DNA of 64,000 nucleotides from Lathyrus oleraceus (lineage: Eukaryota; Streptophyta; Magnoliopsida; Fabales; Fabaceae). A program made the translations under genes and the position numbers. Numbering within the stretch: the first letter of the stretch is position 1; the number at the start of each line of letters is the position of its first letter. Below, one piece after another: positions 17,459 to 22,989 of this stretch. The stretch is from NCBI RefSeq assembly GCF_024323335.1, contig NC_066585.1:84060614-84124613 (forward strand). The letters run 5' to 3'. The notes below the pieces were generated by a model. That model saw only the letters and a list, made by a program, of their open reading frames with translations. It was not told the DNA's origin and did no database searches.

Positions 17459-17706
17459 CTCATCTCCTTTCTGCTGTGTTGCTGTGTTTCCTCAGAGTAG
17501 TGGGAAGTGTCTGTACGGAGGGTGCTTGAAGGTTTTATTGTCCTCACCCCAGCTTGGTGGTCCCTCTCCCAATTCTCTTCATTTTGAAAACTTCACTATT
17601 GGTAAGAAAACTTTCACCACTGTAACTCACTTAGCTGAAAAGTTTGTTTTAGAATTAACTGATTTTGGGTATTTGTGTTGCAACAGCTTCGGCGTGGATT
17701 GAGGTT

Positions 17707-17865
17707 GGTTTTCTCGAACCTCACTGTAAGGCCGACGGCTGAGACATCCACAGTTGAGACAATGAATGACATACCGGTCAATTTTCCATTCAAGGCAGGA
17801 AGCACTTTACCGATAACCTTAGCAGCTCAAACGCTTAGCAACAATTTAAACCGATGGCTTAGAGT
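17707..17865 (-). pseudogene. GAPC: GAPDH (cytosolic GAPC) fragment
   Basis: The minus strand encodes [17 protein letters not shown] followed by a [14 protein letters not shown] segment. This is the conserved NAD-dependent glyceraldehyde-3-phosphate dehydrogenase segment after the catalytic-domain beta sheet ('[16 protein letters not shown]...VDVSVVDLTVRLEK' in the family). Only about 40 residues are clear; about 15 more upstream match after a small indel (17827-17852). The catalytic cysteine region is absent, so there is no enzyme activity. The plus-strand ORF across it is its antisense shadow. This is the left-most piece of the captured block. Confidence 0.85.
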
Positions 17866-17914
17866 GCTTTTGTGCTATTCCGGGATCCATATTATGTTGT
17901 TTTTTTGTACTTAA

Positions 17915-18190
17915 GGAGGTGGAGACGAATGGAATTCAAAAGCAATTGAAGTATATGGGATGCTGAGACCGCGACTTGCTCATTGGAAACTACTTGAGAG
18001 TGAAAAGTTACCAAAACTTTGCATGCTACTGAAGAACAAAATAGAAGAATGTCTTGTCTGAAACGTCGATGCATTTGAAGTGAAGTCACCAATACCGAGT
18101 GATCTTAATATGCATCACATGGTTGATTCAGAGATTGAGCAAGTTCGCAAACTTGTTGTTATGAATAAAGTTGCTCCAATGCGTCATTAA
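17915..18190 (+). pseudogene. unrecognised plant gene fragment on the plus strand
   Basis: Reads GGGDEWNSKAIEVYGMLRPR, then ESEKLPKLCMLLKNKIEECL, one TGA at 18059-18061, then NVDAFEVKSPIPSDLN, MHHMVDSEIEQVRKLVV and a stop at 18188-18190. Composition and residue pattern look like a real helical plant protein C-terminus with one CGA-to-TGA-type nonsense change. It is the only piece of the block on the plus strand. I do not recognise the family. Confidence 0.5.
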
Positions 18191-18254
18191 TTGATTCCCT
18201 CGTACTGTACGTTGGAATGCAGGCAATTGAGTAGCTCAAGTCTCGAGTTCCCCA

Positions 18255-18795
18255 CGCATAATTACCACAAACTTGAAGTATGAGAGGTGTTCAGTCTGGT
18301 AAACCGAGTTAAGGTTTGGTTGGAATGTTGCATTGTTACCCACTGTTGTGAAAAGTAAAGCACTCTTGTCAAATATGACCTTGATGGTAGCTGATACCTG
18401 TCTCTGGTCAGACCACCGGCATCAATACCCTCTTCACCTTGAAATTGCACATTCAACCGCCCCTTAAGATCCTGAGTAGGACGCATCCTTAATTGATTAT
18501 ATGAGTCCTCCAAAATGTAAGCTCGCCTTACACTTATACGCAGCAGCCCAGACAATTGGTGGTCATGTTGTCGCTTGATTCTTGAGGGAAAATAGGCTCT
18601 CTTGTTATCAAAGTCAGTCAGTCTTGGTGCCTTAAGCAACATGGACAGAGATTTCTCCAACAGAATAGGATTTTGTCGAATGAAAGCATTCACAAGTCGG
18701 CGATGCTTTGTAAATGCAACAGCACCAATCGGCTTTTGCTGTGAGTCTCCACAAAATTTTCCACTTACTGAAGCTGAGCAAACAGCAGACTCCCT
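18255..18795 (-). pseudogene. UPL1: UPL1/UPL2 HECT ubiquitin ligase fragment
   Basis: Residues about 160-275 of the 18262-19212 ORF read [59 protein letters not shown] and [17 protein letters not shown]. This is the start of the HECT N-lobe of the giant plant E3 ligases UPL1/UPL2. After GGLTRD a frameshift occurs. The other frame goes on as expected for the family ([29 protein letters not shown]) down to about 18255. The catalytic Cys lies in the C-lobe, which is missing. The piece is fused in frame behind the EB1 fragment. Confidence 0.92.
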
Positions 18796-19212
18796 GACTT
18801 CTCTTGATCCTTTGCATACCTCTCTTCTCTCAAAAGGATTATAATTGTCCTGTCCATAATTGACAGAGTCGCGGTATCGTTTCATCCATTGCATGAACTC
18901 CAGATTATCCAATAGTTTCCCCTTCACTAGCTTACTAACCTCAACGTGCTTAGTGATTTTGAGTTTGTTGAAAACATCTTGAAGAAACTTATAGTTCTGA
19001 ATCATCTCATACGCACTCTTGGCATCAAAATTGACCTTATGCATCGGAACAATTCCAGGATGAGCGGTATCAAGAAGCTGACAGTGAACAGCACCAGAAC
19101 AAGCCTTTTCGACTTTGGAGAGATTGTGTTGAAGAAGTGAATTGATCCAAGAGAGAATCTCAAATCTACCGACGAAGTACTCGGCGTCCATTATTCCGAT
19201 ATTGGTATCCAT
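18796..19212 (-). pseudogene. EB1: EB1 microtubule plus-end protein, CH-domain fragment
   Basis: Starts [20 protein letters not shown] and continues [60 protein letters not shown] and [18 protein letters not shown]. This is the complete calponin-homology domain of plant EB1, including the native start codon. The C-terminal EB homology/dimerisation domain is absent. After about residue 139 ([12 protein letters not shown]) the frame runs straight into the UPL HECT fragment, giving a 316-residue chimeric ORF. In plants EB1 tracks growing microtubule ends through this domain. Whether the 130 contiguous codons span introns of the parent gene would tell whether the copy came through RNA. Confidence 0.93.
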
Positions 19213-19334
19213 TTCCTTCTTCTCTGATTCACTTCATTTTTTCCGTTCTGCTTTTTCTCTCAGCTTCTTGTCGACGGCAAAAGAAATTAATATGAGTTGT
19301 ATCAGTTTTGCTTGTTACTGCATGTGATATATTA

Positions 19335-21419: not shown

Positions 21420-21655
21420 CTAGAAGACGATCCTTGAGCTTGGTTCCGTGGTTCTGCTACGATTTCCCTGCTGAAGCAATGCCATCACTTTATCGGCGGA
21501 GTAAACTCTGTATTGCATAAGGCCTGCTGCTCTCAAAACAAGAGGCCTTCCAAGTGAAATCAAATCTCTTACAGTTTCGTTATAAACCTCGAGATAGGAC
21601 AGATGAACTATATGGTTTCCATCATAGCTTCTGGTCCTGATTTTACTGAAGAGAA
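21420..21655 (-). pseudogene. kinesin-8 motor-domain fragment
   Basis: The minus strand encodes SYLEVYNETVRDLISLGRPL, then VLRAAGLMQYRVYSADKVMA and LLQQGNRSRTTEP, ending at TAG 21420-21422. This is the middle of a kinesin motor domain of the kinesin-8 type. About seven residues between VLR and AAG look deleted relative to the family, and the segment after TTEP jumps ahead. The P-loop and the switch II DLAG motif are missing, so no motor function remains. No Met start lies in this frame. Confidence 0.85.
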
Positions 21656-21656
21656 C

Positions 21657-22055
21657 CTAAATTACCAACACCATCACTCTTGGGTTTTCTACTGTAGAAA
21701 AACTGCTTGACATGGACAGATCAGAAGATGGTGTCATTATGTTTGCAGCCAATGCCTCATTAACAGGCGACTTCAGAGAAACAGGAGTTATAGAATTGTC
21801 CACGATGCTTCCCCCATCAGATAAATTACGTCGGTAAGAACTTAACGAGCCTTTAAACTCCATGCTGACATTTTTGCTAAATGCATGAGATGAGTGATAC
21901 GAAGGATTCTGAATCTCACCGGTAACACGCCCCCAACTATCCCATCTAAAGCTCCATGATGGTGAACATGCGACATCTCTATGCAAACTTTCTCTTTCAA
22001 TTTTGTTAGTACTATCACTACGATCCTTTACAGCAACACAACAAGCCGAACCCAT
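21657..22055 (-). pseudogene. 5' piece of a plant RING-type protein of the MGSxCCVA family
   Basis: Starts MGSACCVAVKDRSDSTNK, then SLHRDVACSPSWSFRWDSWG and RVTGEIQNPSYH, then Ser-rich sequence. A family of plant RING-finger-like proteins begins MGSxCCVAxxD and has 'SPxWSFRWDxxGRVAGE' soon after. Only the N-terminal disordered part is present and the RING domain is missing. The frame is open for 132 residues and ends just where intron-like sequence would start. Confidence 0.65.
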
Positions 22056-22139
22056 AATAACTTAATTTCCAACAAGAAACAGCAATCCAACTTCCTCTTG
22101 AAAACTATAAATTGAGAGGAAAAAGTGAAAAGGATTTGG

Positions 22140-22409
22140 GAGCCCTATGTGATTGGTGGCAAATTGTAGTTCAATGTTGTCTTTGGACAACTTGAAAGGG
22201 CATGCCATGATTCCTGCATCATTTATCAAGATGTTCAGTGGACGGCCAGAGGAATTAAACTCGGATGCAAAATTCTTGACAGAGTCCAACGAGCTTAGAT
22301 CTAACTCTATGGCATCAACTTTAGCCGAGGCAATGTCCTTGAGTATTGTATCTTTGACATCCTTAGCAGCAACCATATTTCTCACACAATATAATGCATG
22401 CTTTCTCAT
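22140..22409 (-). pseudogene. TIC32: TIC32-like short-chain dehydrogenase fragment
   Basis: Encodes [38 protein letters not shown] and [15 protein letters not shown], then LQFATNHIG. This is the Rossmann-fold segment of plant TIC32-type/retinol-dehydrogenase-like SDR proteins. The NNAG motif, which binds the nucleotide, is NDAG here. The N-terminal TGxxxGIG and the YxxxK catalytic residues are missing. After NHIG the frame runs into non-homologous sequence. Confidence 0.85.
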
Positions 22410-22492
22410 TCACTGAACCATTTGAAGTTCCGACAAAGCCATTGCTTTCTGAGAAATTTGTGACAGAATCTTGGGCAGCAACAACATCAACT

Positions 22493-22837
22493 TTAGAGGG
22501 GGAATTTTTCTCCTGAGACTGAAATGTTTTGACTGTCCCTTAGAGGCACATCTGAACTTGATTTCCCACTGTTCTCCGAGTCCAATTCAATATGGGATGC
22601 AAAGGGCGAATTGGAAAGTATAATGCCAGAACCATTTAACGCGGTGAAGTTTGGGTGGTTGGACATCATTTCAGCAATTTCAAGCCATTGTCCATTTTCA
22701 TGTTTTCTTTCCCAAAGATCTCTAAATTTTACAGATGCATCCATCAATCGAGATGCTCTAAAGCATTCAGCAAATGACATCAAAGCAGGTATATAATCAA
22801 TCTCAAAACCAGTAGCAACAGCACGTGCAAATGCCAT
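22493..22837 (-). pseudogene. CIP7: COP1-interacting protein (CIP7-like) fragment
   Basis: Encodes MAFARAVATGFEIDYIPALM, SFAECFRASRLMDASVKFRD and LWERKHENGQWLEI, then SNHPNFTALNGSGIIL. This is the conserved block of the plant COP1-interacting-protein-related family. The ATG is internal in the parent protein. Just upstream 'AAAGAGTAAG' looks like an intron 3' end with T-rich sequence before it, so some intron DNA may have been captured too. Right-most piece of the block; the frame ends at a breakpoint near 22493. Confidence 0.85.
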
Positions 22838-22989
22838 GCCTTACTCTTTGTAAATTATGTATTTTTTTGGATAATCTATGATTTGCAATGAATGAAAATT
22901 GGTGTTTCTTGTAGCAAGACAAGGATCTCTCTTTGCATCTTAGAAACTTCATGTATTCATGTGATGAGATGCTTTTTTTTATTATAAGT

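Follow-up and report, generated by a model that had tools for sequence, protein, structure and literature searches.

Mosaics of spliced host gene pieces in the long terminal repeats of an Ogre-type retrotransposon family of pea

Capture of host genes by plant long terminal repeat (LTR) retrotransposons and switching of reverse transcriptase between templates are known separately (PMC13317346, PMC2774510, PMC3726574). We analysed a stretch of 64,000 nucleotides (nt) from pea, Lathyrus oleraceus (C7:84060614-84124613, hereafter the window), in which a solo LTR of Ogre type carries, over positions 17707-22849, a mosaic of pieces from at least 11 donor genes in LTR sense.

In Bs1 of maize, the richest case of gene capture by an LTR element that we found in print, the host gene segments are presumably internal to the element. 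They derive from three genes (PMC13317346), as compared with at least 11 donors in the solo LTR. Foreign sequence acquired by abnormal template switching has been described for Veju and, into the LTR, for BARE-2; the partners were another retrotransposon or unknown sequence (PMC13317346), whereas here they would be many host messenger RNAs (mRNAs). The template-switching complexes of the Triticeae (Sabot and Schulman 2007) likewise arose by switching between packaged RNAs, but both of those were derived from retrotransposons rather than from host genes (PMC1950507). The Ogre elements of the Fabeae are like the present ones in their LTR ends, their type of primer-binding site (PBS), and their very long LTRs. 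Published Ogre LTRs measure 1.9-6.5 kb (PMC6431247), as compared with 8.48 kb for the solo LTR and 7.87 and 8.19 kb for those of a complete element described below (element A), and the LTRs found here differ by their host gene pieces. Maize Helitrons also hold many gene fragments per element, up to nine (PMC6431247), but they are DNA transposons, whereas the spliced pieces described here lie inside LTRs with the hallmarks of LTR elements. Keyword searches of the open-access literature, with subscription papers outside their scope, showed among the papers listed no report that LTRs, those of Ogre included, carry mosaics drawn from many spliced genes. Gene capture by an LTR element is known; what is new here is its extreme form, with at least 11 spliced donors in one LTR.

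Donor genes and their introns

Nine donors were named through their relatives: GAPC, UPL1/2, EB1C, PRAF, MED25, an uncharacterised plant protein, kinesin-8A, a RING-type protein, and a TIC32-like short-chain dehydrogenase/reductase (SDR). All nine lie on the minus strand, which is the sense of the LTR. Two further donors are intron-bearing loci of the same genome, called NUP214 and CIP7 in the original prediction, which had been made from the letters of the sequence. When donor proteins were compared with the 8.5-kb stretch by tblastn, best E values ranged from 7.5e-38 (kinesin) to 2.7e-81 (EB1C), in a listing that also held weaker secondary rows; the GAPC piece, outside that comparison, matched in Pfam (E 6e-10) and PDB (9e-13). 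Pfam returned nothing, or matches below the cut-off, for the names CIP7 and NUP214, and Pfam and PDB searches with the pieces that lack a named donor gave no result. We use the names CIP7, NUP214, MED16, and NOT1 as assumed ones, in part taken over from the original prediction and unverified.

That prediction had recognised ten gene pieces. All ten proved real, through named relatives or as intron-bearing loci in the same genome, and chance similarity was rejected as their source; eight of the ten donor names were verified, the other two being CIP7 and NUP214. It had also given all pieces but one the same orientation. The nine named donors do share one strand, but the single opposite-strand piece was not confirmed: plus-strand frames at 17915-18187 had no Pfam match and weak PDB matches (best E 0.12). 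The pieces had been said to abut with little or no filler, which holds in part, since five stretches, together about 0.95 kb, are without a donor.

Donor loci with introns were found in the same genome for seven pieces. Twelve donor introns were testable in DNA, and for 11 of them the window shows precise removal at GT-AG (0-2 mismatches in 28 nt): three each in the RING and EB1C pieces, and one each in the TIC32-like, CIP7-like, and kinesin pieces and in the two parts of the NUP214-like piece (loci L066 and L059). The source of the mosaic was therefore spliced RNA, and the comparison with parent genes that the original prediction had proposed favours capture by way of RNA. The UPL1/2 piece is uninformative on introns.

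We infer that two further introns are crossed by the PRAF and MED25 pieces, where the window reads straight across. This rests on open reading frames (ORFs), from rows picked among 120 listed of 130 hits, and the counts that follow hold among the matches listed. After the residues KLRxQ of PRAF, 23 of 24 uncurated ORFs stop within 27 residues, and the 24 show 20 distinct tails (those of P0297-P0299 are alike); the ORF P0281 reads through like a spliced product. The 15 annotated PRAF models divide into eight that read through, three that stop there, one that differs, and three not displayed. For MED25, 22 of 29 uncurated ORFs start inside the exon and seven extend upstream of the join, all seven with unrelated residues up to the Q before E.

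Two other routes by which gene pieces might have entered an LTR were considered. The first is a pack-type DNA transposon that had picked up genomic gene pieces and inserted into an older LTR. Such captures are common, with 1194 by Helitrons in maize (PMC2774510), but the introns are excised here and pieces lie in both LTRs of complete elements (see below); we rejected this origin as very improbable. A dedicated scan also bore out the earlier failure to find Helitron or terminal inverted repeat (TIR) ends. TIRs with a target-site duplication (TSD) gave 0 hits at 11/12 or 10/10 (shuffled controls 0, 0, 1 and 0, 0, 0), a search that decayed TIRs could escape, and a Helitron-like hairpin with CTRR 3′ end was found 0 times on either strand of 15001-23700 with a stem of at least 7, in a scan run without shuffled control. 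The second is ordinary read-through transduction of neighbouring genes, as known for Rider in tomato (PMC13317346). The located donors, however, are spread over several chromosomes of this genome (C1, C2, C6, and C7); for them read-through was rejected, and we give it next to no credence.

The LTR as vehicle of the mosaic

The original prediction had placed the pieces inside a solo Ogre-type LTR. This host was confirmed by TG..CA ends and by a perfect 5-bp repeat, GTAAC, flanking 15130-23606. The ends match those of complete elements elsewhere in the same genome, and the 3′ part is 70-87% alike, over parts, to other Ogre-type LTRs of the window. Two of the latter adjoin an exact PBS; in the window exact PBS occur only elsewhere, none adjoining the solo LTR. 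The solo LTR is best explained as the product of recombination between the two LTRs of a mosaic-bearing element. A search of its own genome (3.795 Gb in 1550 contigs) with the LTR 5′ end gave 1217 first-look candidates, of which 40 were scored and all 40 listed; the LTR family is therefore large. Scans of viral-contig and genome-contig collections with the same end gave 0 matches. A repeat scan of 14500-25000 found two short direct families and no inverted pair, and a repeat and similarity comparison within the window found no second mosaic elsewhere in it.

Matches to 18000-18600 in the same genome include many same-strand pairs and triplets 12.8-19.4 kb apart (at least 27 matches, window included), and the edges of two of these pairs, elements A and E, were read. 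The LTRs of element E are 97.1% identical over 5,370 columns and each holds the CIP7-like piece; the TSD GCGTC flanks the element at either end, the 5′ LTR is followed by a PBS-like site that departs from the window's exact PBS at 2 positions, and a sequence like a polypurine tract (PPT), AAATAGGGGCAAC, precedes the 3′ LTR. Element A has the same PPT-like site, a PBS-like site that departs from that exact PBS at 1 position, and the TSD CAGCT/CAGCC as outer flanks, with one mismatch between the copies. The identity between its LTRs is 98.8% in one block and 98.6% in another, and the GAPC side, the piece next to it, and the NUP214-like piece are present in both LTRs. We take the PBS and PPT of both elements to be of the type of Ogre. 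A third same-strand pair (L032 and L027) lies 22 kb apart; the pea proteins P0209 (KIW84_013008) and P0282 (KIW84_013010) map there with 99.5-100% identity over stretches of 63-184 residues. The search for other genomic copies, also proposed beforehand, had thus returned two complete elements with TSDs and with mosaics in both LTRs. Because both LTRs of complete elements carry mosaics, the mosaic belongs to the LTR and moves with it: the vehicle of the mosaic is the LTR.

Further pairs were seen. L043 and L044 (C1:393.04-393.06 Mb) are 99.0% identical and hold the piece of the uncharacterised protein and kinesin; with an exact PBS to one side of each, they appear to be two LTRs from a tandem array. 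Same-strand triplets were observed on C7, one at 426.11-426.14 Mb and another at 403.72-403.76 Mb. The equal spacing and the PBS adjoining both L043 and L044 point to mosaic elements arranged in tandem as LTR-internal-LTR-internal-LTR. L041 and L042 (C4:72.08-72.11 Mb) are 99.8% identical over 7,681 bp and hold the GAPC-to-UPL and NUP214-like pieces; their apparent LTR ends are unlike the window's and the pair was not counted as a complete element. The mosaic may here have moved between LTR types.

Reshuffling and proposed serial template switching

Copies of the mosaic differ from one another. Element A exits the LTR at the window's switch point, ..AATTTACAAA, and then enters different sequence; further on it holds leucine-rich repeat (LRR) pieces (Pfam) and, from the RING gene also captured in the window, a later segment with 82% identity over 101 residues, all in LTR sense. 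In L047, on C4, the NUP214-like/EB1C stretch is joined to the kinesin, RING, and TIC32-like pieces with hardly anything between, and the junction of LTR and CIP7 recurs at C3:315115237/315115238. Five joins of the window, together with the kinesin deletions, recur in the pea proteins P0001, P0154, P0209, P0246, and P0255. Among 353 fetched proteins, only six chimeras match the join motifs fully, the best matches of the others covering 6-11 residues of 11-22. Pieces recur from one mosaic to another while the content varies, from which we conclude that copies reshuffle their mosaics.

Some of the protein models seen in these comparisons point beyond the window. P0246 (pea KIW84_050689) contains an ABC1 kinase piece (Pfam) and MED25 with the window's MED25 join, and so holds further donors; another of its pieces is presumably NOT1. 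Four gene models of faba bean (Vicia faba; P0258, P0260, P0269, and P0349) hold the piece of the uncharacterised protein with different flanks, as if it were dispersed in that species as well.

Long interspersed nuclear elements (LINEs) have a role in the making of chimeric retrogenes, and chimeric retrocopies made by a LINE might have landed in the LTR and been carried along by the element. This would likewise give intron-less pieces, sense or antisense, and chimeric retrogenes are reported from plants (Wang et al. 2006, by its title as cited in PMC13317346). However, the nine named donors all have LTR sense, different mosaics start at the same LTR point, and the minus strand of 17500-17900 has no run of 7 or more A (TSDs of single pieces were not scanned). 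We regard a LINE origin as quite unlikely.

The joins themselves bear on a further possibility. Eight nt are common to both donors at the EB1C/UPL join, TACAGTG (7 nt, by donor letters) is common to both at the RING/kinesin join, and none is shared at the TIC32/RING join, so that the template-switch signature is mixed. A Helitron-type element could have joined genomic pieces, after which a spliced chimeric transcript would have been copied into the LTR with one or a few switches. Maize Helitrons do yield chimeric spliced transcripts (PMC4528327) and contain up to nine gene fragments (PMC6431247), and the TIC32-like piece stops at a donor exon end. The EB1C/UPL join, by contrast, with 8 nt in common, lies inside donor exons, there is no AG acceptor where the RING piece starts, and no intron-bearing composite was found among the matches listed. 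Piece sets and orders differ between copies, and such a route would therefore need many events; we consider it unlikely.

The position of the proposed promoter suggests where in the LTR the pieces lie. In the window a TATA motif, in the common context ..TATAWAAG.....CACTGTTC, stands 3′ of the mosaic, as it does in six of nine other LTR copies (L040, L043, L044, L047, L048, and L049); the pieces would accordingly lie in the unique 3′ region (U3). Following the first strand transfer, U3 is the part copied first, and it is then doubled into both LTRs (PMC1950507). The proposed order of steps would be as follows: host mRNAs would be packaged in the particle with the element RNA. During synthesis of minus-strand complementary DNA (cDNA), the reverse transcriptase would leave the element RNA, copy several packaged host mRNAs serially, and then return to the element. 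A switch made after the first strand transfer would put the pieces in U3, and they would then be copied into both LTRs and spread with the element. Finally, later switching between copies would reshuffle the mosaics. All templates would be sense RNAs, hence pieces in LTR sense and without introns.

We consider it likely that this is an Ogre-type (Ty3/gypsy) family whose LTR mosaics of spliced host mRNA pieces were made by serial template switching. The original prediction had left the mechanism open and raised, as a serious alternative, that an LTR element transduced cDNAs serially; the intron test and the other copies support this alternative. With somewhat less assurance, we think it probable that the Ogre-type lineage keeps, adds, reshuffles, and spreads a changing U3 library of spliced host mRNA pieces, which would be exon shuffling by a retrotransposon reverse transcriptase at a scale until now credited to Helitrons, with the element's own U3 rewritten from host mRNA.

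Several observations weigh against this reading. The twelfth intron, in kinesin, is also absent, but a 21-nt deletion spans its join, and the intron test was run without shuffled control. No nt are shared at the TIC32/RING join, strict exact-match ends leave gaps of 11 nt at RING/kinesin and 14 nt at L059/EB1C, and the stop of the TIC32-like piece at a donor exon end could also result from splicing of a composite. The TATA motif is absent from three of the nine other LTR copies (L039, L045, and L046) and equally from three of the window's Ogre-type LTRs that lack a mosaic, and two looser TATA motifs lie inside the mosaic.

Frameshifts and deletions break the pieces, so that a working protein is unlikely. 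The interest of the family lies elsewhere: it shows that many genes can be shuffled together by a single kind of mobile element. Which host mRNAs the particles of plant retrotransposons take up, how frequently their reverse transcriptase switches template, and whether host RNA can serve to rebuild U3 are long-standing questions that become testable in sequence. Chimeric gene models in a crop genome are also explained, P0209 and P0282 sitting in mosaic copies.

Coordinates and neighbouring elements

Table 1. Features of the solo LTR, listed from its 5′ to its 3′ end in the numbering of the window, and two complete elements elsewhere in the same genome.
Feature	Position	Strand	Remarks
Solo Ogre-type LTR, 8,477 bp	15130..23606	minus	5′ end 23606, 3′ end 15130; TG..CA ends, TSD
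TSD GTAAC, right	23607..23611		
LTR proper, 5′ part	22850..23606	minus	same LTR end widespread in genome
CIP7-like piece (name unverified)	22552..22849	minus	donor L052; one intron excised at 22743/22742
Stretch, perhaps further CIP7-like sequence	22388..22551	minus	no match in donor locus L052
TIC32-like SDR piece	22144..22387	minus	donor L051; intron excised at 22225/22224; stops at donor exon end
RING-type protein piece	21691..22143	minus	donor L050; leader and coding sequence from ATG at 22055
Three excised introns of RING piece	22098/22097, 22061/22060, 21722/21721	minus	L050
Kinesin-8A piece	21440..21696	minus	donor L053; intron excised at 21489/21488
Uncharacterised plant protein, piece	21001..21418	minus	internal deletion relative to pea P0255
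Piece without Pfam match or useful PDB match	20824..21000	minus	
MED25 piece	20434..20823	minus	reads across inferred intron at 20758/20757
Short piece, donor not named	20346..20433	minus	its MED25 join recurs in pea protein P0246
PRAF piece	19962..20345	minus	reads across inferred intron at 20054/20053
Stretch without donor match	19885..19961	minus	
NUP214-like piece (name unverified)	19249..19884	minus	loci L066 and L059
NUP214-like piece, L066 part	19649-19884		intron excised at 19747/19746
NUP214-like piece, L059 part	19249-19663		intron excised at 19627/19626
EB1C piece	18794..19260	minus	donor L065; leader and coding sequence from ATG at 19212
Three excised introns of EB1C piece	19105/19104, 18949/18948, 18845/18844	minus	L065
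UPL1/2 piece	18265..18804	minus	L004; inside single donor exon
Piece recurring in other mosaics, donor not named	17827..18264	minus	
GAPC piece	17707..17826	minus	Pfam and PDB matches
LTR proper, 3′ part	15130..17706	minus	end of U3, repeat region (R), unique 5′ region (U5); subdivision inferred
TATA motif TATATAAG, proposed LTR promoter	17449..17456	minus	3′ of mosaic
TSD GTAAC, left	15125..15129		
Element A	C3:270.63-270.65 Mb		LTRs L039:1893-9764 and L040:1638-9825
Element E	C4:256.14-256.17 Mb		5′ LTR L045:2978-8344, 3′ LTR L046:3028-8393

Two other elements were observed in the window. A minus-strand Ogre-type element at 42397-61458 has LTRs of 5,169 bp that are 99.79% identical. Its internal region measures 8.7 kb, contains repeats at 47766-49533, and has no more than two frames of at least 150 residues; judged from these features, it is young and, in all probability, not autonomous. 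A Ty3-type element occupies 33267-41734. Its LTRs measure 1,965 bp and are 99.5% identical, its long open frames lie at 35347-36384 and 36385-39729, and it seems to be nested in an Ogre-type element of the plus strand.

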